Source: a virus
DNA: 20,542 nucleotides
Strand: one strand, 5' to 3'
Virus record (IMG/VR): IMGVR_UViG_3300030109_003033
Location: 1-20,542 of that record
How positions within the stretch are numbered: the stretch's first letter is position 1; each line of letters opens with the position of its first letter. The position numbers and the translations under genes were made by a program. Of the stretch, positions 197-10,681 are shown piece by piece. The notes beneath the pieces were generated by a model, which saw only the letters and a program-made list of their open reading frames with translations, ran no database searches and was not told the DNA's origin.

Positions 197-625
197 ATGA
201 CTCTTGTAAATGCTCGCGCTGCTTTTGAAAAGGCAGTCACTGACGCTGTTACAGGCGCTGATGACACAGTGCTGATGGTGTATGACAACGTTCGTTTTAC
301 GGCTCCTGGCAAGAGTAAAAAATACGTTGTTATGAGCGTCAACTTCAATCGCTCAACGCTGCAAAACCAAGGCGCAGCCTCTGACTATTACAGCGGCGTG
401 ATTCAATGCAACGTTTACGTCCCAAAATCAGGTGGAACGTCGGTGCTGTCTGCGATTAGCGAATCTGTTATTGATGGTTTGACCTCAGTAAACGGCACTG
501 GCTATACAGACACGTTTAGCGTTTCTCCAAGAGTTATGGACGTTACTGGCCCAAGCCCTATTGAGCTAGAGGACAGAGCGCACTTTTTGGGCATTATTTC
601 TTGTCAATTTACGGCAGTCGTGTAG
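197..625 (+). CDS. Tail terminator-like protein (gpU / DUF4128 type)
   Basis: The protein has 142 residues, a usual length for siphovirus tail terminators, which cap the tail tube when it reaches the tape-measure length and join tail to head. The N-terminus is a short helix, followed by alternating beta segments ('YDNVRFTAPGKSKKYVVMSV', then 'GVIQCNVYVP' near residues 68-77) and a C-terminal strand 'FLGIISCQFTAVV'. This is the layout I associate with gpU/DUF4128-like proteins. The ATG at 197 follows the previous stop by 3 nt with no clear Shine-Dalgarno sequence. The next gene is the tail chaperone, so the tail-tube gene normally found between them is missing here. The family assignment is from sequence appearance plus synteny, without a search. 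Confidence 0.6.
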   Translation: MTLVNARAAFEKAVTDAVTGADDTVLMVYDNVRFTAPGKSKKYVVMSVNFNRSTLQNQGAASDYYSGVIQCNVYVPKSGGTSVLSAISESVIDGLTSVNGTGYTDTFSVSPRVMDVTGPSPIELEDRAHFLGIISCQFTAVV

Positions 626-651
626 TATATTGATCGAAACGGCATTGATTT

Positions 652-1005
652 ATGCGGGCCACCGAACTGCTTCGGAATAAATTTGGCGTTAGCCAGCTTT
701 ACAAGTACGAGGTAAAAGAAGGCGATGAGGTAGTGCTTGAGGTGTTTTGGCACCCGCTTACCATCGACGAACGCGAGTCGATCCAGAAAAAGGTCGATGC
801 TGGCGAGGGCAACGATTTTGCTCTTGGCTTGATGGTCGAAAAAGCTTTGGATGAAGACGGCAAACGGATGTTCCAGGATGGTGAAAAAGCTGCGCTTAGG
901 AACGCTGTAGCTGCCTCTGTCCTTCAGGAAATTCAGCTTGCCATGCTGAACTCTGGAACGGAGCATAAGGTGGAGGAAGCGAAGGCAGACCTTAAAAGCG
1001 AGTAA
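652..1005 (+). CDS. Tail assembly chaperone, short form (gpG-like)
   Basis: The protein has 117 residues, is highly charged and mainly helical, with a beta start ('YKYEVKEGDEVVLEVFWHPL', residues 17-36) followed by helices rich in Glu and Lys. Size, position directly upstream of the tape measure, and a following overlapping frame are all typical of the gpG component of tail assembly chaperones. These coat the tape measure and recruit tail-tube subunits, and are absent from the finished virion. The stop TAA is at 1003-1005. Just before it the sequence CTT AAA AGC offers a slip site into the frame that continues to 1192. The start ATG at 652 has no visible Shine-Dalgarno sequence. Confidence 0.65.
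   Translation: MRATELLRNKFGVSQLYKYEVKEGDEVVLEVFWHPLTIDERESIQKKVDAGEGNDFALGLMVEKALDEDGKRMFQDGEKAALRNAVAASVLQEIQLAMLNSGTEHKVEEAKADLKSE
991..997 (+). promoter_or_regulatory. Candidate programmed ribosomal frameshift site (+1 or -2)
   Basis: Positions 991-997 read CTTAAAA, with codons CTT (991) and AAA (994) in the gpG frame. After a +1 shift the same Lys tRNA could re-pair with AAA at 995-997, and translation would continue at 998 in the gpT-like frame. That frame has a TGA at 947-949 and no stop until 1190, so any shift must occur between about 950 and the gpG stop at 1003. A -2 shift would reach the same frame. A GGAGGA at 972-977 lies about 16 nt upstream; whether it stimulates slippage is unknown. 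Confidence 0.45.
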
Positions 1006-1192
1006 CGACTGGTATTTTATTTTTTTCTTGGCAAAGGAGCTGGGCATGACGGTTGCTCAGCTTTCGCGTGACTTGACGCAGGAAGAGCTAGTCGGCTGGG
1101 CTGCTTATTTTGAGCTGCATAACGAGCAGCAGGAGAGAGCGATCCAGAACGCTAAGGCAGGCAAAGGGGCGCGAACGATGGGTGGGCGGTAG
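998..1192 (+). CDS. Frameshift-encoded gpT-like extension of the tail chaperone
   Basis: This is the second half of a gpG-gpGT style pair, in the frame offset +1 from the 652-1005 gene. From 998 it encodes 64 residues including 'DWYFIFFLAKELGMTVAQLS' and then 'TQEELVGWAAYFELHNEQQE'. The W..(F/L)AKELG..V..L...L..EEL..W.AY pattern is what I recognise from minor tail protein T/DUF4035-like chaperone domains. Fused to the first 115 residues of gpG it gives a protein of about 179 residues. An alternative is independent initiation at ATG 1046, which has an AAGGAG at 1034-1039 with 6 nt spacing. That start would lose the conserved aromatic and AKELG part, so I favour frameshifting, possibly in addition to internal initiation. 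The stop is 30 nt before the tape measure start. Confidence 0.6.
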   Translation, partial: ASNDWYFIFFLAKELGMTVAQLSRDLTQEELVGWAAYFELHNEQQERAIQNAKAGKGARTMGGR

Positions 1193-1222: not shown

Positions 1223-3988
1223 GTGGCTAACTACGACGTAGATATAAAAATTGCTTTAAAAGGGTCTCAAAAGCTTAAACAGCTAACTGATCAATTAAAA
1301 GCAACTAATAAAGAAGTCGGCAAACTTAACGCTGCAACAATAAAAGCGGCCAAAAGTCAAGACGAATCTTTCTCGATTAAAAAGATTCAAAATATCAATA
1401 ATTATTCAAAAGCAGTAGCCAAGGCTGAGCGTACTTTAAAAAGAGCAGCTGCTGGCACCGAACAAGAGCAATTAGCAGTTAAAGCACTTGTCGCTGCTAG
1501 AAAACAGCATAATCAACAGTTAGAGCGCCAAAACAAACTCTTAAAAGAAGAAGAGTTGCTGCAGGGTGTTGGCAGGCGGCCAAAAGTAAAAGGTTCTAAC
1601 CGAATAAGCGCTTCGTCAGGGCTGTCTTCTCCCTTGATGGGGGCCCAAGACATAAAAGGCTCTCCTATGGAAAGAGCTTTTGGCTACAAGCCGGGGGCAG
1701 GCGGCAAAGGCAGAAGGGGTGGATTTGGTGGCCTCCAAAGCGCTGCACTTGGCGTTGGCTTTCCGCTGCTGTTTGGCGGTGGAGCGGGATCAATTGCTGG
1801 CGGCCTGTTAGGCAGTGCAGGCGGCTTTGGCGGTCAAATTCTTGGCAGTGCTATCGGTGCTCAGCTAGATGCATTTGCGGCTTCGTCTGCAAAACTAGGC
1901 CAGGCATTAAATCTCCTTACGGCAGACGTTGATGCGGTAATCAAAGCGACTGGAGAAAGTGGAACTGAGTTTGAACAGTTAGTCAAAGGTTTAGAAAAAG
2001 TCGCAGGGACAGAAGCGGCTTTAGAAGTTGCATCGGCAAAATTAGCAGTTGCAGTTGGCCAGGGCGGAGTAACAGCCCTTAAACAATTTGGAGATGAAAC
2101 GGCAGAGTTAGGAAATACATTTTCAGTAACTTTGACTCAAATTGGAGTAGCGGTTGCTGAGTTAATAAATAAAGCGGGATTATTGAAATTCGTTACAGAA
2201 GGTTTAGAAAGAAGAAATTTACTCACGGCTGGCCTTAGGAACAGTTCGGATCCTAAGTTAAAACAGTTAAACGAAGAAAGGACGCAGCTTAAAGGCGAAG
2301 GAGCATTTAGCAGAGCTGCTGACGATCCCGAAATAGTTGCAATTGAAGATAAAATTGTAGCGCGTCAGCGTGAAATACAGTTAATTAAAGAAGCCGCAAT
2401 CGAAGAAAATGCAAGAATTATAAAAACTGAAGCTTTGCAGCAAAAGTCTCTTGTAAGCTTGCGAGTTGCAGAGGCTCAGCTTGAGCTAGATAAGTCTGGT
2501 TTAGACATAACCACTGATCAAGGATTTGAGCTTGCTAAAAAAGTAATTGAAGCGCGTAAGTATGAAAGATTGCAGCAAGCGATTAACGAAGACGCAGGCC
2601 ACGAGCTAGCAATCCTTCAAGAGCAAGTAGATCTTTTTGCGCTAAACAATCAAAGAAAAGAAAAAGAGCGCAGGGACGCAGAAAGAGATGCTAAAGAGGC
2701 AGAAAGGGTTAGAAACAAAGAAAATCAAATTTTAAGAACAATTAACTCGCTAATTATTTCAAACAACGAGATTGCGTTGCAGTCTGTTCAAATAGCGCAT
2801 GGAGAAGAAGTGGCTCTTGAGCAGCAAGCCGCTTCGCTGTTTGAAAAGTTCCGCATTTTGAAGAGAAACGTAGAACTTTCAACAGAAGACGCAAGGGTCA
2901 AGGATTTGCAATTGCAAAAACTTGATTTGCAAAAACAGCTAGAAAGCAATCAAATTAGCTCTAAGCAAAGAAGTTTACAGGTTGAAAAAGCTATAACCGC
3001 AGAAAAGCAAAAACAAGCGCTTGCTGCGATTGAAACTGATATTGGTCGTCAAATACAAGACGCAAACTTTAGGTCTACAGGCGATAGCACCCAAGATGCT
3101 CAAATTGCTTTACGAATTGATCAAATTCGCAGGCAAGAAGACGTCACAACCCGACTGACTAATGCAATAAGAGAGCAGCAAATAACTATTGATAATCCGC
3201 CTACTGCAGACGCGGCAATGAGGGCGGAAAAACAGCGTCAAAATTTGCAGGGCCAGCTTGACCTTTACAATCAGCTTCTGCCCCAGTTAGACGCAGCCGA
3301 GCAAGCTCAACTTAGGTTTAACCAAGCACTTGAGGCAGTGCAGCCAATTACAGATACAGTTGTAAGCGGTTTGTTTACTGCAATATCTGCTGTTGCTGAG
3401 GGGACAAAAACAGCAGAGCAAGCGTTCGCTGATTTCTTAAGAAGCATTGGCGACATGCTGATTCAAGCTGCTGCTCAAATGATTACTCAGTATATTGCAA
3501 TTGGCATTGCTAAGGCATTTGCTTTCGGCGGCAGTGGCGGTTTTGCCAGTAACCCCACAGGTACAAGCACTAATTTCATTGGTAGTGGGTTAAGTGGCTT
3601 CCGAGCAATAGGACTTGCAGAAGGTGGTTATGTCACCGGCCCAACTAATGCCGTAGTCGGCGAAGGTGGCGAGCCGGAATACATCATTCCCCAGTCTAAA
3701 ATGCGTGAAAGCATGAACAGGTATTCACGCGGTGCTCGCGGTTCTTCTGTTATCCCAGCAGTGGGCGGCGGTGGAGCGTCAAGCGAAGGCGGCGGGACTG
3801 CTGTTGCCGCACCAATCGATGTCCGCTACACCGTGGAGCGCATCAACTCTGTTGACTATGTAACCGCTGATCAATTCCAAGCTGGGATGCGTGAAGCCGC
3901 AACGCAAGGCGCTAAGCAAGGCGAACAACGAGCTTTGACTACGCTTAGGCAGAACACAACGCAACGCAAGAGGGTTGGGCTGCAATGA
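1223..3988 (+). CDS. Tail tape measure protein
   Basis: This 921-residue protein sets tail length and is ejected ahead of the DNA. Residues 10-110 are Lys/Gln/Ala-rich helix. Residues about 170-215 form a Gly-rich hydrophobic block ('FPLLFGGGAGSIAGGLLGSA') that could insert in membranes. Residues about 380-700 are long charged helices, probably coiled coil. About 726-770 carry the typical 'AEQAFADFLRSIGDMLIQAA' helix. The C-terminus has a 'GYVTGPTNAVVGEGGEPEYI' segment that I recall from phage tape measures. The start is GTG at 1223; the frame upstream runs to the TAG of the gpT-like frame at 1190. The last codons overlap the next gene as ATGA. If the usual roughly 0.15 nm per residue holds, the tail would be about 140 nm. 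The central part is visibly richer in AAA, TTA and AGA codons than the 3' end. Confidence 0.9.
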   Translation: MANYDVDIKIALKGSQKLKQLTDQLKATNKEVGKLNAATIKAAKSQDESFSIKKIQNINNYSKAVAKAERTLKRAAAGTEQEQLAVKALVAARKQHNQQLERQNKLLKEEELLQGVGRRPKVKGSNRISASSGLSSPLMGAQDIKGSPMERAFGYKPGAGGKGRRGGFGGLQSAALGVGFPLLFGGGAGSIAGGLLGSAGGFGGQILGSAIGAQLDAFAASSAKLGQALNLLTADVDAVIKATGESGTEFEQLVKGLEKVAGTEAALEVASAKLAVAVGQGGVTALKQFGDETAELGNTFSVTLTQIGVAVAELINKAGLLKFVTEGLERRNLLTAGLRNSSDPKLKQLNEERTQLKGEGAFSRAADDPEIVAIEDKIVARQREIQLIKEAAIEENARIIKTEALQQKSLVSLRVAEAQLELDKSGLDITTDQGFELAKKVIEARKYERLQQAINEDAGHELAILQEQVDLFALNNQRKEKERRDAERDAKEAERVRNKENQILRTINSLIISNNEIALQSVQIAHGEEVALEQQAASLFEKFRILKRNVELSTEDARVKDLQLQKLDLQKQLESNQISSKQRSLQVEKAITAEKQKQALAAIETDIGRQIQDANFRSTGDSTQDAQIALRIDQIRRQEDVTTRLTNAIREQQITIDNPPTADAAMRAEKQRQNLQGQLDLYNQLLPQLDAAEQAQLRFNQALEAVQPITDTVVSGLFTAISAVAEGTKTAEQAFADFLRSIGDMLIQAAAQMITQYIAIGIAKAFAFGGSGGFASNPTGTSTNFIGSGLSGFRAIGLAEGGYVTGPTNAVVGEGGEPEYIIPQSKMRESMNRYSRGARGSSVIPAVGGGGASSEGGGTAVAAPIDVRYTVERINSVDYVTADQFQAGMREAATQGAKQGEQRALTTLRQNTTQRKRVGLQ

Positions 3989-4833
3989 CCGATATTGCAA
4001 GGACTTATGCAGTCACCGTTGTTGCTGACAACGGCAACAAGTATCGGTTTGACGGCAGCTCAATCAACGCTGAAACCCTTGAGCTTGAAGAGGGTAAAAC
4101 CTACCGCTTTACGCAAGAGGACAACAGCAATAGCGGTCACCCGTTTCGTTTCAGCACAACGCCTAATGGCACGCACGGTGACGGCGTTGAGTACACGACA
4201 GGTGTAACAACAGCCGGAACACCTGGCTCTTCTGGCGCTTACACGCAAATAGAGCTGGCGGTTGGTGCGCCGTTGCTTTACTACTACTGCACGGCCCACT
4301 CAGGAATGGGTGGTGCGATCAGGACGTTGGGTCTTGGGACCAATAACAGAACAATTGCTTTCGGTCATTATTTGACCTTGCGCCCGCCTGATGGCACGGC
4401 TGAATTCAGCTACCAAAACTATTGGGTTGGTGAAGATGCGCCATTTTTCAACGTAGATACAGACAAACGGAAAGAGTTTGGGTTTTTGCCGTTTGCCTTT
4501 TCTGGTGCGACTGTGACCAAGACGGGCGACAACACGCCAGCATCACTTGCTTTCCCTAATAACGAGCTAAGCCGTCCCTTTGCCACAACCGTTGTAGATG
4601 GCCAGTATCTCGCTCATATCCGCACTGTTCTGATCAATCCAGACGATAAAGAGGATTACACACTGATCAATCGATACATTGGGCAAATTGTATCGGCCCA
4701 GTGGAGTTCTACGGTCTTGAAGATTGAGCTTGCCTCTGTTTTAGATGCTGTTGGTTCGGACATACCGCGTAAGCGTTTGACGCGGCAGTTGGTTGGGCAC
4801 TTGCCGTTGACTAGCCGTGTTCGCGTTACGTGA
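3985..4833 (+). CDS. Tail tip protein with N-terminal cupredoxin-like domain (gpL position)
   Basis: The protein has 282 residues in two parts. Residues about 8-116 are a beta-rich domain with a conserved 'GHPFRFSTTPNGTHGDG' segment and a 'YYYCTAHSGMGG' segment. His52, Cys102, His105 and Met108 have the order and C-x2-H-x2-M spacing expected of a type 1 copper site (cupredoxins such as plastocyanin). Residues about 118-282 form a second beta-rich domain ending in 'IPRKRLTRQLVGHLPLTSRV'. Its position between tape measure and the K-like gene matches lambda gpL, though I see none of the Cys ligands of gpL in that half. The start ATG overlaps the tape measure stop (ATGA). A tail-tip structural role is inferred from synteny. 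The domain is common in marine phage proteins as I recall, but copper binding is not shown. Confidence 0.7.
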   Translation: MTDIARTYAVTVVADNGNKYRFDGSSINAETLELEEGKTYRFTQEDNSNSGHPFRFSTTPNGTHGDGVEYTTGVTTAGTPGSSGAYTQIELAVGAPLLYYYCTAHSGMGGAIRTLGLGTNNRTIAFGHYLTLRPPDGTAEFSYQNYWVGEDAPFFNVDTDKRKEFGFLPFAFSGATVTKTGDNTPASLAFPNNELSRPFATTVVDGQYLAHIRTVLINPDDKEDYTLINRYIGQIVSAQWSSTVLKIELASVLDAVGSDIPRKRLTRQLVGHLPLTSRVRVT

Positions 4834-5195
4834 TTGACCTGATTGGCCGCCCATACCGCTTAGGGGCAGACGGCTCTGACCCAGATGGTGCAATCGACTG
4901 CATACATCTTGTCTATGTCGCCTTGGAGCGGATGGGCATTGAAACGCCAAAGTTTAAGGCGTCTTGGTACGGACAAAGCGTTAGGCAGTATGGCCGCGAT
5001 CTTTTGGCATGGGGTGTAAGGGTAAAAGAGCCTCAGTATGATGGCGATGTGTTGCTGTTAAAGCAGGGTGATCCTGTTTTTGCAGTTGTTTGGAGCCAAG
5101 GATGTCTGTACGTCAACCGCCATTTGAACGCGGTCGCATGGTGCCCATTCAGCACCAAGCTGTCCAGCCATTGCTTCCGTATGAAAAAAACTTAA
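4830..5195 (+). CDS. NlpC/P60-like tail protein (gpK-like), possibly degenerate
   Basis: The protein has 121 residues. 'DPDGAIDCIHLVYVALERMG' (residues 17-36) fits the DC-x2-L motif around the catalytic Cys of NlpC/P60 peptidases, here Cys24, and 'YDGDVLLLKQGD' (70-81) fits the GD(L/V) strand. Such proteins in the gpK position cleave peptidoglycan at the tail tip during entry. The region where the family normally has a catalytic His reads 'DPVFAVVW', with Phe84 in the likely slot; His98 in 'NRHLNAVAW' is the nearest His. Activity is therefore uncertain. The start is GTG at 4830, overlapping the previous TGA (GTGA). The 3' end overlaps the J-like gene by 94 nt in another frame. Confidence 0.65.
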   Translation: MIDLIGRPYRLGADGSDPDGAIDCIHLVYVALERMGIETPKFKASWYGQSVRQYGRDLLAWGVRVKEPQYDGDVLLLKQGDPVFAVVWSQGCLYVNRHLNAVAWCPFSTKLSSHCFRMKKT

Positions 5196-8100
5196 TTCAG
5201 GCACTTGGTTGTAGCGAGCAAGAGTATCAACAGTTTGCAGATGAGGTTAGGCGGCGCGTTAAGGAAAGGCCAGAAGAGTATGCACATATCCCTGACATTA
5301 GAAACGGGCCGGTTGTTACATCGATTTTGGTTAGTTTAGTTGTTGGAGTAATTTCAACTGCTGCCTCAATCTTATTAGCGCCAAAACCAAAGGCTCCTGA
5401 TCAACCTGCTGAAATTCGCCGCAGACAGCTTGGCGGCGTCACTGGACGTTCAATTTTTACGCCTACGTTTGGGTTCGACTCAGCGCAAAGTTTGGCTGAA
5501 TATGGCAATGTCGTGCCTGTTGTTTTTACAAGGCGGGACGAATCTGATGGAACGGGCGGACTGTTGGTTTCGCCTCAGCTTGTTTGGTCCCGCATGAAGA
5601 GCTGGGGTGGCTATCAAGTTGCCGAAATTGTCACGGTTGTAGGGCAGGGCAATATGGCACGTCCTGAGTTGCCTGGCATTTTTCTGGGCAACAACGCTTT
5701 AGATGGAATTTATGAGGCATATTTTGATTTTTACTTTAATGGTGGGTTTGAGGTGCAAGGCTCAGGCAGCCGCTTGCGTGCATTCAACCTGCGTTATGGC
5801 GATTTAGCAATTGATGGTAATAACGACAACCCCGGAATCAGCGGAGCTGACCAGGCTTTTTACGCACCAACGCGCAACGGTGCAAATCAACCTGCGTTTT
5901 GTGGAGCGTTCACCCCTACGTCACAGACCAGATTTGGTGTCTACTCAGGAATTCCAAATGGTACTCCTAGGCGACCTGATTGGCGTGTTATTTCACTTCT
6001 TGATAGTGGCGACGATAAGACAAGAGATGAAGCGGCAACTCAACAAAGAAAGTACGTTGACGGATATTTAGCGCAAGAGCATCCTTACGGGGGAGGGATA
6101 AGCGATGGCACAACACAAGCTGGAATGCCTGGCACTGGCGTCAATTACTGCAGCCGTGTAGGAGTAATTGAGCATTATCCGGTTGCAGGCGGCGTAAATA
6201 CGGTTACCCATGTAGTTGATGACAATAAAAACGGGTTTGAGAAGTGGAGTAACTTGACCACAGAGGTTGAAGTTAACCCTGGCGATAAAATTGTTATTTC
6301 ACTTGGAAAAAACAGGCAAGACAGCGAGCCGTTTCCTGTTATTGGTGGCCATGACTTTCCCCCGGCTGATTTGAGTGACATTAGAACATCGGTTGACAGC
6401 GAAGTGGTTCGGTATGACCAAATGCTTAGCCAAGGGTCAACGTGGATGATTGGTCGCTCTACTTGGCAAGTTGTTGATCGCCCCAATGAGAGGTTCGACC
6501 CTGACAACAATAACCACACGTCAACTGGTTACCGAATTACCTTGAAATGCCTTGAAGGGTGGAGCAGAAACCAGCGCAAGATTGGAATTGTTGATGGAGG
6601 AGCAATTGACAGGACTGACTATTTACCTTTTTCAGACATTGAAGAATCGTTTTATCCGATTTTAAAGTATGAGATTGGAACGGTTCAGAATACTAGAGCT
6701 TGCGAGGTCACTGAGATTGGAATTAAGTCAAGAGTGTGGGCAAAGTTTAACTCGATAACTAACTTCAACACGTTAAAATCACCGGGCATAATGGCCCAGT
6801 TAAACGAGGACGATATTCAGGTCACAGAGGGCAAGATGACCACATTTGCCCATCGGATGTCACTCTTTGCGCTTGACGTGAGGCCTAGCAATTATGACGA
6901 AAACGAAACCCGCAACAAAGGCTGGACAAACATTGGCCCATATTTATTCGCTGTTGTAGGCGACTCACCTGTTGACATCTACTCTTTCATCCGAATAATT
7001 CATCCGTCTGTAAGCCAGCTTGAGTTTCGCCTCAGGCCATTCAATAGTGCAATTCCTGCACAGCAAAGTTCGGGCGAGGGCGAAGTATTTGTTTTGAACG
7101 GCGCGATTGTCCCTGCGCAGTCCTGGGAGTCAACAACGTATTTGGGAGAGTTTAAAATATCTGGCAGAGGCTATTTTGCAAAGCCAAGAGATTTCTTTAC
7201 GCACTTGCAAATGGCCATTGTGCCTGAGTTGATCACTGATGAAGACGGAAAGGTCAATCTAGTATTTGGCAGCTTTGTCCAAGATACCACTAAACTCGGT
7301 GCCCGCATTGTAAGAATTACAGCCAATGAGCCTGGGCCTAGTTACAACCAAGGCGATGAAATCAGGCCAAACACTTTAAGCAACATTTTGTCAGTCGCAG
7401 CTAGCCAAGATCCGTATTTTGACAATATAGCGGTTGGGACTACAACAACAATTCCGTGGGAGTATTCAAGAGACGACCGCAAGGTTTTTATGGAGTTAAC
7501 GCTGGAGGCTGTTGAAGTTAATTATGACCACACGGTTCGCAACAGGTGGTGGATCATCAAGGACACAAGAATCACCAGTGTGGTTGGAACGTGGAATCAA
7601 GGAGATACGTTTGTTAAGCACGCTCGAAATACAAACGGCATTCAATTTGGATTCGTTTATGAAATTACTTTTGGAACAAAATATCAAGAATTTGATAAAC
7701 CAAGAACGGCTACTAGGGTTTTCCAAAGATATAGCGGTATCGCTGAGGTTTCACATTACGGCGATTTGGTTTCAAGAAGTTGCGACGACGGGCCAGAGCA
7801 TGAAGTCGTATTCGTAAATGAAACGCTTGAAGAAGACAATATGGTCAACTATGACGGATGTGCGATGGCGGGATTAAAGCTCAAGTCAAGCGATAATTTT
7901 ACGCAACTAGACCAGCTCAGGTGCTACTTAAAAAATGGCCTTGAGGTGGAGCGCCTGTCTTATGACGACGTAGCGCCAAGCAATCTGCTTACCGATTTGT
8001 TTTGGTACTTTGCCACCAACAAAGACACTGGTGCCGGGTCGATAGTTAACAGTGCTTTGGTGGATCGCGAGGCGTTAATTGTCACCGCAAAGTATCTGGA

Positions 8101-9001
8101 CGCGAACAACCTGTATTGGAACGGCACGGTTGATGAATCAATCAATCTTAGGTCTTGGCTTGCGGTGCAGGCCCCAAGTGTTTTGTGCTTTACCAGCATG
8201 AAAAACGGCAAGCTGTCACTGGAACCTGCTTTGCCTTTTAACTCTGATGGGACAATTGATGCAACAAACCCGGTCGCAATCTCTGCGATGTTTTCTGAGG
8301 GGAACATCCTTGAGGACAGTTTAGAGATTGATTGGCTTGAACTTGAAGAGCGTAAGTTGTTTCAGTGCGGGATCACTTATACAACGTCAAGAGTTAATCA
8401 GTTCCCTGAGCAGAAAACATTGATTGTTAGATACACAGACGTGTCAAACAGCACTGAGCTTCCTTTGGAGCAGTTTGATTTTCCGCATATTCACAGCACA
8501 GAGCACGCCCAAAAAGTAGCAAGATATTTCCTTGCGCTAAGGCGTTATCAAACGCATACGATTCTGTTTAAGACGCTGCCCTGGGGCGTGAGTCTTGAAG
8601 CGGGCAAGTTCATTCGTGTTGCTAGTGAGATGAGCCCGTACCGCCCAGAGAACAATGGCATCGTGGATAAGGATGGGAACGTAACGTCTATTTCAACTCT
8701 TGATAACGGCACACACGATGTTTTCTATTGGAACCGCCAAAGCACAGACGTGTTGGAAGGGGTATTGGAGATCAAAGCTGGCAAAGCTGTAGATCTGTTT
8801 GACAGCGTGTTTTCTGTGAAGGGCGGGTCTAACGCTGATTCGCAGATCTATCAGATTGAAGCACTAGACCTTGATGAGGATGGCATCGTCACCATTAAGG
8901 CCAGCAACTACGCAGTAGACTCAAGCGGTCGAAGCCTAGTTGCAATTGACACGCTTGGGCTTGGCGACAACACTGAGTTCGATGGAGCGGTAGACGACTA
9001 A
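5102..9001 (+). CDS. Tail tip hub / host-specificity protein (gpJ-like)
   Basis: This 1299-residue protein is in the J position. After a charged helix, residues about 70-93 form a hydrophobic segment ('TSILVSLVVGVISTAASILL') followed by 'APKPKAP', a transmembrane-like element often present near the N-terminus of J-type hub proteins. The rest is beta-rich, with 'GYQVAEIVTVVGQGNMARPE' near residues 160-180 and hub-like domains to the C-terminus. It should form the trimeric central tip that closes the tube and carries receptor-binding elements. I prefer ATG 5102; TTG 5090 and ATG 5138 are also in frame. The start lies inside the K-like gene, and the stop TAA shares one base with the next ATG (TAATG). 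Codon use in the middle (about 6200-7900) looks more AT-rich than in the last 1 kb. Confidence 0.8.
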   Translation: MSVRQPPFERGRMVPIQHQAVQPLLPYEKNLIQALGCSEQEYQQFADEVRRRVKERPEEYAHIPDIRNGPVVTSILVSLVVGVISTAASILLAPKPKAPDQPAEIRRRQLGGVTGRSIFTPTFGFDSAQSLAEYGNVVPVVFTRRDESDGTGGLLVSPQLVWSRMKSWGGYQVAEIVTVVGQGNMARPELPGIFLGNNALDGIYEAYFDFYFNGGFEVQGSGSRLRAFNLRYGDLAIDGNNDNPGISGADQAFYAPTRNGANQPAFCGAFTPTSQTRFGVYSGIPNGTPRRPDWRVISLLDSGDDKTRDEAATQQRKYVDGYLAQEHPYGGGISDGTTQAGMPGTGVNYCSRVGVIEHYPVAGGVNTVTHVVDDNKNGFEKWSNLTTEVEVNPGDKIVISLGKNRQDSEPFPVIGGHDFPPADLSDIRTSVDSEVVRYDQMLSQGSTWMIGRSTWQVVDRPNERFDPDNNNHTSTGYRITLKCLEGWSRNQRKIGIVDGGAIDRTDYLPFSDIEESFYPILKYEIGTVQNTRACEVTEIGIKSRVWAKFNSITNFNTLKSPGIMAQLNEDDIQVTEGKMTTFAHRMSLFALDVRPSNYDENETRNKGWTNIGPYLFAVVGDSPVDIYSFIRIIHPSVSQLEFRLRPFNSAIPAQQSSGEGEVFVLNGAIVPAQSWESTTYLGEFKISGRGYFAKPRDFFTHLQMAIVPELITDEDGKVNLVFGSFVQDTTKLGARIVRITANEPGPSYNQGDEIRPNTLSNILSVAASQDPYFDNIAVGTTTTIPWEYSRDDRKVFMELTLEAVEVNYDHTVRNRWWIIKDTRITSVVGTWNQGDTFVKHARNTNGIQFGFVYEITFGTKYQEFDKPRTATRVFQRYSGIAEVSHYGDLVSRSCDDGPEHEVVFVNETLEEDNMVNYDGCAMAGLKLKSSDNFTQLDQLRCYLKNGLEVERLSYDDVAPSNLLTDLFWYFATNKDTGAGSIVNSALVDREALIVTAKYLDANNLYWNGTVDESINLRSWLAVQAPSVLCFTSMKNGKLSLEPALPFNSDGTIDATNPVAISAMFSEGNILEDSLEIDWLELEERKLFQCGITYTTSRVNQFPEQKTLIVRYTDVSNSTELPLEQFDFPHIHSTEHAQKVARYFLALRRYQTHTILFKTLPWGVSLEAGKFIRVASEMSPYRPENNGIVDKDGNVTSISTLDNGTHDVFYWNRQSTDVLEGVLEIKAGKAVDLFDSVFSVKGGSNADSQIYQIEALDLDEDGIVTIKASNYAVDSSGRSLVAIDTLGLGDNTEFDGAVDD

Positions 9002-9378
9002 TGGCTTTCCCTGTTCTTACGCCTAGTGCTCGCGCTTTTGATTCTGGCGACTACCCCGTAAAGGTTTATAAGGCGCAAAGCGGAAGCGAAACGCGCATTT
9101 TGTATGGGGACAAGCGCACCAATATGAAGCTGCAGCTCACATACGCAAATATCAGCGATGCAAACGCAGAGTTGTTCCTAGACCATTACGACGAAATGAA
9201 AGGCAGCTTCACCACCTTTGACTTGAATTCGAGCGCCAAAGGGGGCTGGGAAGGCAACGCCGACGCCATTGGAGCGCAAGACCACGGCAATAATTATCGA
9301 TATGAAGCGCCGCCACAGGTAACGCAGGTGCGGCCTGGGATTAGCACTGTTACAGTGAGCCTGATCGGGGTTCTTTGA
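9001..9378 (+). CDS. Minor tail protein, gpM/DUF2460-like
   Basis: The protein has 125 residues, is soluble and beta-rich. It has 'RILYGDKRTNMKLQLTYANI' (residues 32-51), then a helix 'ANAELFLDHYDEMKGSF' and a C-terminal strand 'VRPGISTVTVSLIGVL'. A reference strand with 'GD+R', an aromatic strand, a helix with '..F..H+....G.F.TFDL' and a final Val-rich strand are what I expect of gpM/DUF2460-type minor tail proteins at the tail tip. The start ATG overlaps the J-like stop by 1 nt. The gene lies after, not before, the J-like gene, unlike lambda. The family call is moderate; the tail role is well supported by its neighbours. Confidence 0.55.
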   Translation: MAFPVLTPSARAFDSGDYPVKVYKAQSGSETRILYGDKRTNMKLQLTYANISDANAELFLDHYDEMKGSFTTFDLNSSAKGGWEGNADAIGAQDHGNNYRYEAPPQVTQVRPGISTVTVSLIGVL

Positions 9379-9815
9379 TGTCCAAGGTCTACACCGGCAG
9401 AGACGGCGTAATGCAGCTTGCTGATGTGACCCTTGCTAAGGTCGTCAGCTTCTCTGTGCAAAGCGATTTAGAGACGCTGGAAACCACAACTTTGGGTGAT
9501 GGCGTTAGAAGCTATAGCCCTGGCGTGACAGGCTATTCAGGCAACGCAACGCTGCTTTATTATAAAGATGACGATGATGCAATCAATACAACTGATCTGC
9601 TCAACAAGTTAATCAAAACTGGCAGCGATGGTGTCAGCAGTAGTGACACAGTTGAGCTGACATTCCGCTGGGCTGACGGAACTGACAACAACGATATTAA
9701 GCTGACGGCTTATATCACAAGCGCAAGTTTAGGGGCTGCAACTGGCGACATTGCGCGGGCTGAGATTTCGTTCCAAGGCACTGGAGCGATTACTACTGCG
9801 TCAATTGGATCATGA
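9378..9815 (+). CDS. Tail tube-like protein 1
   Basis: The protein has 145 residues from ATG 9378, which overlaps the previous TGA (TGATG). 'SFSVQSDLETLETTTLGDGV' at residues 24-43 is characteristic of siphovirus major tail (tube) proteins, where a strand and loop with an E(T)..TTLGD signature packs in the hexameric ring. A C-terminal part with 'LTAYITSASLGAATGDIARA' followed by 'EISFQGTGAI' completes a tube-like fold. It probably builds the tail tube or part of it. Normally this gene lies between the tail terminator and the chaperone; here it is 8 kb downstream. It overlaps the next gene by ATGA. The neighbouring 289-residue protein carries a related signature, so the two may be paralogues. 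Confidence 0.65.
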   Translation: MSKVYTGRDGVMQLADVTLAKVVSFSVQSDLETLETTTLGDGVRSYSPGVTGYSGNATLLYYKDDDDAINTTDLLNKLIKTGSDGVSSSDTVELTFRWADGTDNNDIKLTAYITSASLGAATGDIARAEISFQGTGAITTASIGS

Positions 9816-10681
9816 CGGTTTATCTAGGCACCTATGGCAAAGTTGAGCTTGAGCGGGAATTCAACGGCGGGGTGCTGACTGGAACGATTAAGGCTGACGA
9901 CGTAAACACAACTACAAAACGGTTTAGCTTTGATTTTGACCATGGCCAGCTTCTGACTGGCGATCAGATTGAAATTACAAGTACAGATGATAGTGCCTTA
10001 GATTTTATCGACAGTTATACAGATTCAAGCGTAAAGAAATTTATTTACGTTGACGAGTTAGACGGCATCAGGCTTTACGACAGTTTTGCCAATGCAGTGA
10101 CTGGTGGCTCAAGCAACGCAACATCACTTGCCACGCCTGGGAACGACATACCTATTGAAGTAAAAGTTGAAAACTCTGACTACCGCTTGGTCGCTCAAGT
10201 AAACAACTTTGAGCTTAATACTGAGAGAGAAACTGTTGACACGACTACGTTGTCAGACGAGTTCAGAACTAAAGTCAACACGTTAATTTCTGGATCGGGA
10301 AGGATAAGTGCGTTTTGGGAATACACCGGAGACACCAGCAATGAAGTTCCCAATTACATAATGGAGCTTGCGTTAAGAACGCGAGTTGGCAGTAATTTTA
10401 AAGGACGTTTTTACATAAAAGTAAAAGACTATAACCCAAGCGGCGTTACTGCTCGGTCCAATGATGAGCTGTGGTACGAAGCAAACGGAATTATCACGGC
10501 AGCCGCAGTTCAGTTTGCTCCAGATAACACGGTGCAGATAACTGCTGATTTCATTACAACTGGCGAGATACAAATCCGCATGGACCTTGAAGCTGCCGAT
10601 AACGCGCTTACAGAGGGCGGGGATGAAGTCGTTCTCGACCAAGACGACACTGCTAACCTTGAGCTAGACGGCACCGAGTAA
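9812..10681 (+). CDS. Tail tube-like protein 2 with extra N-terminal domain
   Basis: The protein has 289 residues. Residues about 1-115 form a distinct beta-rich domain ('VYLGTYGKVELEREFNGG', later 'FDHGQLLTGDQIEITSTDD' and 'YVDELDGIRLYDSFANAV') that I recall from cyanophage proteins but cannot name. Residues about 120-270 look like a second tube fold: 'NNFELNTERETVDTTTLSDE' (131-150) matches the TTLGD signature of the preceding protein. The C-terminus is acidic. It may be a minor tube subunit, a tube decoration with the N-terminal domain facing outward, or the distal ring. The ATG at 9812 overlaps the previous stop. The gene ends 16 nt before the fibre gene. Confidence 0.55.
   Translation: MTVYLGTYGKVELEREFNGGVLTGTIKADDVNTTTKRFSFDFDHGQLLTGDQIEITSTDDSALDFIDSYTDSSVKKFIYVDELDGIRLYDSFANAVTGGSSNATSLATPGNDIPIEVKVENSDYRLVAQVNNFELNTERETVDTTTLSDEFRTKVNTLISGSGRISAFWEYTGDTSNEVPNYIMELALRTRVGSNFKGRFYIKVKDYNPSGVTARSNDELWYEANGIITAAAVQFAPDNTVQITADFITTGEIQIRMDLEAADNALTEGGDEVVLDQDDTANLELDGTE

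Follow-up and report, generated by a model that had tools for sequence, protein, structure and literature searches.

A probable programmed +1 frameshift at AAA_AGC in the tail assembly chaperone gene of a phage family with relatives that shift -1

Results

The window, by which we mean the whole stretch of virus DNA analysed here (20,542 nt; IMG/VR record IMGVR_UViG_3300030109_003033, positions 1 to 20,542), carries a gene, G, that PHROG matches place between the tail terminator and tape measure genes, as in G/GT pairs (Table 1). A second reading frame, T, overlaps the end of G and is open from 950 to a TAG at 1190-1192, offset by +1 relative to G.

Table 1. Features at the G-T locus (positions are those of the window)
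Feature	Position	Strand	Remarks and evidence
Tail terminator gene, upstream of G	197..625	+	phrog_179 3.2e-12
G, tail assembly chaperone	652..1005	+	117 aa; product of normal termination; phrog_344, phrog_20784, fold
TGA in T frame, upstream	947..949	+	bounds possible shift region in window
Slip site AAA_AGC	994..999	+	AAA_AGN in 252/252 +1 loci; lowest synonymous diversity
G stop codon TAA	1003..1005	+	one codon past AGC; 0, 1 or 2 codons past AGC in relatives
T domain, +1 frame	998..1192	+	64 aa; phrog_26456, phrog_337; three-helix model
Predicted GT fusion	join(652..996, 998..1192)	+	179 aa
Tape measure gene, downstream	1223..3988	+	in the place expected after G-T; phrog_24 1.7e-8

In the window (197-652), the tail terminator is followed by G with no tail tube gene in between; this place encodes a major tail protein in S-2L and contains at least one gene in KBS-S-2A, S-H1 and MED4-184. 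Possible tube-like genes, judged from a reading of the sequence, lie past the tail tip genes at 9375-9815 and 9812-10681. A 1303-codon tail tip frame (5090-9001) overlaps a short gene (4830-5195) that by eye resembles a tail NlpC/P60-type peptidase, and an open frame of 147 aa on the minus strand (604-1047), antisense to G, is probably a by-product of the codon usage of G.

By sequence and predicted fold, G is a tail assembly chaperone of the gpG type. It matches phrog_20784 (6e-19) and the tail assembly chaperone family phrog_344 (E 1.8e-5), and its AlphaFold model (pLDDT 78) has as its top PDB match the HK97 tail assembly chaperone 2ob9 (probability 1.00, E 8.6e-3, with a modest TM of 0.49-0.56). 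Pfam contained no family for either G or T of the window; Phage_TAC_13 was found in 3 of 48 relatives. T matches phrog_26456 (9e-9) and the tail protein family phrog_337 (5.5e-6), and is modelled as a three-helix domain (pLDDT 83). Rows from isolate records were excluded from the input to structure modelling. An earlier note on this DNA had described a hidden gpT-like frame, free of stops, offset by +1 from the 652-1005 gene and carrying the patterns AKELG..V..L and EEL..W.AY. The frame is as described, and the patterns are present in it as AKELGMTVAQL and EELVGWAAY.

IMG/VR was searched with the window's own G and T, as well as with the G of Marine virus AG-345-A17, KBS-S-2A, S-H1, HTVC202P and a fifth relative, and we counted loci in which G was readable and T could be located by profile. 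Among the resulting 439 loci, T lies at +1 in 252, at -1 in 187 and in frame with G in none. Some contigs are present twice, and the number of distinct 150-nt junctions is 187 at +1 and 140 at -1. T went undetected at six loci, five of which run no further than 70 nt from the G stop, while the sixth (L283) starts only within the final 22 codons of G. Every locus of the window's type keeps the +1 offset and AAA_AGN (252 of 252); with the PHROG tail family matches of T and the third-position differences described below, this confirms the observation as far beyond chance.

These counts bear on the reading that a sequencing or assembly error has split a single gene whose true form is fused in frame. 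The earlier note had held that homologues encoding both halves in one frame would speak for such an error; the per-locus frame call found none, and an in-frame pattern scan returned no homologue among the 120 matches listed. Moreover, the relatives form two groups whose frames are displaced in opposite directions (+1 and -1). What favours an error is UniProt D6PII1, a viral protein of 179 aa whose single chain contains matches to G (69%) and to T (66%). We consider the error reading extremely improbable for the window and already refuted for the family. D6PII1 was encountered as a fold match; it has the length of the predicted fusion and is the sole possible in-frame member that we met. Accessions of this type presumably derive from Mediterranean fosmid clones read by pyrosequencing, and loss of one A from AAAA would yield such a fusion. 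Long tblastn alignments that seemingly spanned the junction without a change of frame were rejected as over-extensions.

The point at which the frame changes is narrowly confined. At 154 of 233 loci a stop in the T frame lies directly against the shifted AAA, and 0, 1 or 2 codons separate AGC from the G stop (233 loci); the frame change must therefore take place on AAA or the next few codons. The site, CTT AAA AGC GAG TAA in the phase of G in the window, has the form AAA_AGC in 246 of the 252 +1 loci, AAA_AGT in four and AAA_AGG in two. The codon before AAA is free (TTG, CTC, TTA, CTT, CTG or CTA, and ATG or CTN in a relative clade). Thus the site is AAA_AGC and not CTTAAAA (991-997), which the earlier note had proposed as the place of slippage just before the stop: its AAA stands, as part of a conserved AAA_AGN, and its CTT does not. 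The variable distance to the G stop indicates that this codon is not part of the site either.

Selection on these codons was visible in 111 representatives below 95% identity, drawn from the +1 groups of the window and AG-345-A17 types. The slip AAA and AGC have the two lowest synonymous diversities (0.000 and 0.036) of 66 conserved degenerate columns in G (median 0.517), whereas the Leu column that adjoins AAA is strongly variable (0.673). Lys at the slip position is encoded by AAA in 111/111 representatives, as against 662 AAA and 455 AAG elsewhere in G, and Ser by AGC in 109/111, although AGC accounts for only about 19% of Ser codons elsewhere. As the slip codons are frozen and the neighbouring Leu is free, selection acts on the nucleotides and not only on the LKS peptide. 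Slippage of RNA polymerase, rather than the ribosome, might be suspected because the shift point is an A run; however, most loci have only four A, transcriptional slippage has been reported for runs longer than about 7 (PMC3711429), and a frozen AGC in the A site would not be expected. Of all the readings considered here, this one has the most negligible probability.

If Lys-tRNA steps one base forward, from AAA to the overlapping AAA, all three base pairs are restored; this +1 move is possible in 252/252 loci, in agreement with the slip of this tRNA suggested by the earlier note. That note had left the direction as +1 or -2. Both lead to the same frame, and phage Mu uses -2 (PMC5009743). In many relatives, however, the site reads TTG AAA AGC TAA, which is TGA-AAA-GCT-AA in the T frame, so that a -2 shift would place Lys-tRNA on TGA or TAA, or Ser-tRNA on AAA, and none of these pairs; the freedom of the codon before AAA also argues against it. 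Since +1 re-pairs and -2 does not, we take the shift to be +1 and regard -2 as highly unlikely. Nor does the window conform to a -1 heptamer of the form X_XXY_YYZ: its T lies at +1, and such heptamers go with the -1 relatives.

T might instead be a separate small gene that is begun inside the frame, at ATG 1046 or TTG 1028, with no fusion. A plausible ribosome binding site, AAGGAG, lies just upstream of ATG 1046 and the product would have 48 aa, as the earlier note had pointed out, and S-H1 has a separately annotated T-like gene. Yet the position of ATG 1046 is K in 41% of representatives, and 98 of 233 loci either have their first in-frame ATG, GTG or TTG at least 19 codons past the shifted AAA or have none. 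Where relatives differ, the third T-frame position accounts for 61% of the differences in T codons 1-16, upstream of ATG 1046, and for 60% in codons 17-45, and this match indicates that the upstream region is translated in the T frame. A W just past the junction and the LAKELG stretch, both upstream of ATG 1046 and under coding selection, are nearly invariant among relatives. With starts scattered or missing and protein-level selection beginning upstream of ATG 1046, an internal start is not a conserved route to T; it would also leave the frozen AAA_AGC unexplained, and we consider it very unlikely. By contrast, conservation and homology give strong support to a gpG/gpGT-like pair whose two parts are linked through programmed frameshifting at AAAA.

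We looked for elements that might stimulate the shift. A Shine-Dalgarno-like sequence at the spacing seen in prfB was not found upstream of the site: only GGAGG at -22 or GAGG at -18 occurs there, which fits codons for Glu-Glu, and a stimulator of this kind was rejected for its wrong spacing. Consensus folding gave no conserved downstream RNA structure. The 70 nt directly behind the site have a mean z of -1.41 by dinucleotide shuffling, whereas z elsewhere reaches about -1.1; with this z and a null consensus folding, we claim no stimulator. AGC is not rare in this phage, at 23 per thousand codons, a figure that describes the phage's own usage.

In relatives of the KBS-S-2A, S-H1 and HTVC202P types, G is homologous and the same T follows directly behind it at -1, with the classical A_AAA_AAC in 179 of 187 loci. 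T also lies at -1 in MED4-184, S-2L and a further locus (L279), which lack an A_AAA_AAN heptamer near the G stop. The T half is unannotated in the isolate records of KBS-S-2A, S-2L, MED4-184 and HTVC202P, and is listed in that of S-H1 as a separate hypothetical gene. A scan of genome contigs for prophages returned nothing. On well supported branches of an unrooted tree of 36 G+T proteins, the direction must have changed three times or more; when two long branches were removed, three to four changes remained and a single +1 clade was rejected (AU test p 0.0001). A +1 clade with ATG_AAA_AGC (L268, L269, L277 and L275) is nested among -1 loci of the KBS type. No intermediate between the -1 and +1 types of site was seen among the loci.

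Discussion

We propose that a group of marine phages very probably uses, at this locus, a programmed +1 frameshift at AAA_AGC to make both G and a G-T fusion. Most ribosomes would read G and terminate at its TAA, giving the chaperone. A fraction would pause while peptidyl-tRNA-Lys occupies AAA (994-996) and AGC is next to be read in the A site; Lys-tRNA would then slip one base forward to AAA (995-997), Ala-tRNA would read GCG (998-1000) as the next codon, and translation would continue to 1192. The pause could arise because AGC may be slow to decode in the host. The G-T pair would presumably serve as tail assembly chaperones: if they work as lambda gpG/gpGT do, the G part would coat the tape measure protein, the T part would recruit the tail tube subunit, and a low rate of frameshifting would set the G:GT ratio.

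Frameshifting between G and GT, +1 included, is already known, and shifts of -1, -2 and +1 have all been described in the G-T genes of tailed phages (PMC5009743). Lambda gpG/gpGT and its counterparts (Xu, Hendrix and Duda 2004, as cited in PMC5009743) have in common with the window the gene order, the chaperone G, the tape measure gene that comes next and a frameshift late in G that leads into a short T domain, but lambda shifts -1 and the window +1 at AAA_AGC. The haloarchaeal myovirus HSTV-2 very likely also shifts +1 in its G-T gene, although this is an archaeal virus (PMC5009743). Re-pairing of a P-site tRNA at +1 likewise occurs in phage tail genes, in the tail-shaft genes of Listeria phages PSA, A118 and A500 and in SPP1 gp17.1*; these sites, however, have CCC before a stop in the major tail protein gene, in place of AAA before a sense AGC in a chaperone gene, and the chaperone of SPP1 itself shifts -1 (PMC5009743, PMC6316719). 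The stop is part of the site in the CCC-stop sites of Listeria phages and in CUU_UGA of prfB, whereas at AAA_AGC the G stop lies outside it. In the open literature covered here, the +1 sites described for phages are CCC followed directly by a stop and, in the capsid gene of PSA, ACA_CCC. Yeast Ty1 (CUU_AGG_C) provides a +1 P-site slip in which the A site likewise holds an AGN sense codon, but in a eukaryote that decodes AGG slowly (PMC5009743); AGC is not rare in this phage. For forward frameshifts, the authors of the frameshift predictor PRFect state that no general motif is known; their 'four' pattern would cover AAA_A (PMC10885494).

No report of an AAA_AGC slip site was found in the open-access literature, and publications on P-SS2 and on a freshwater cyanosiphovirus mention no frameshift. 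Within the open literature, both a site of the form AAA_AGN, whose A-site codon is a sense codon, and the repeated switching of direction appear to be new, and the switching is the more interesting part of the finding. A change of AAC to AGC together with a net +2 or -1 indel would interconvert the two directions, and exchange of T by recombination may also form part of the path. More tentatively, and with a little less confidence than doubt, we suggest that AAA_AGN, whose A-site codon is a common sense codon, suffices by itself as a bacterial +1 site and has arisen more than once in one gene family through conversion of A_AAA_AAC to AAA_AGC together with a small indel, so that very few mutations would switch the direction of shifting while G and GT are kept.

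One consequence is practical: in published records of cyanophages and Pelagibacter phages, gene calling overlooks the T half or splits it. Beyond this, hundreds of natural sequences here define a forward motif whose A-site codon is a sense codon. Finally, homologues in which the shift at this lysine codon goes backward provide a matched natural series on what sets the direction of slippage.
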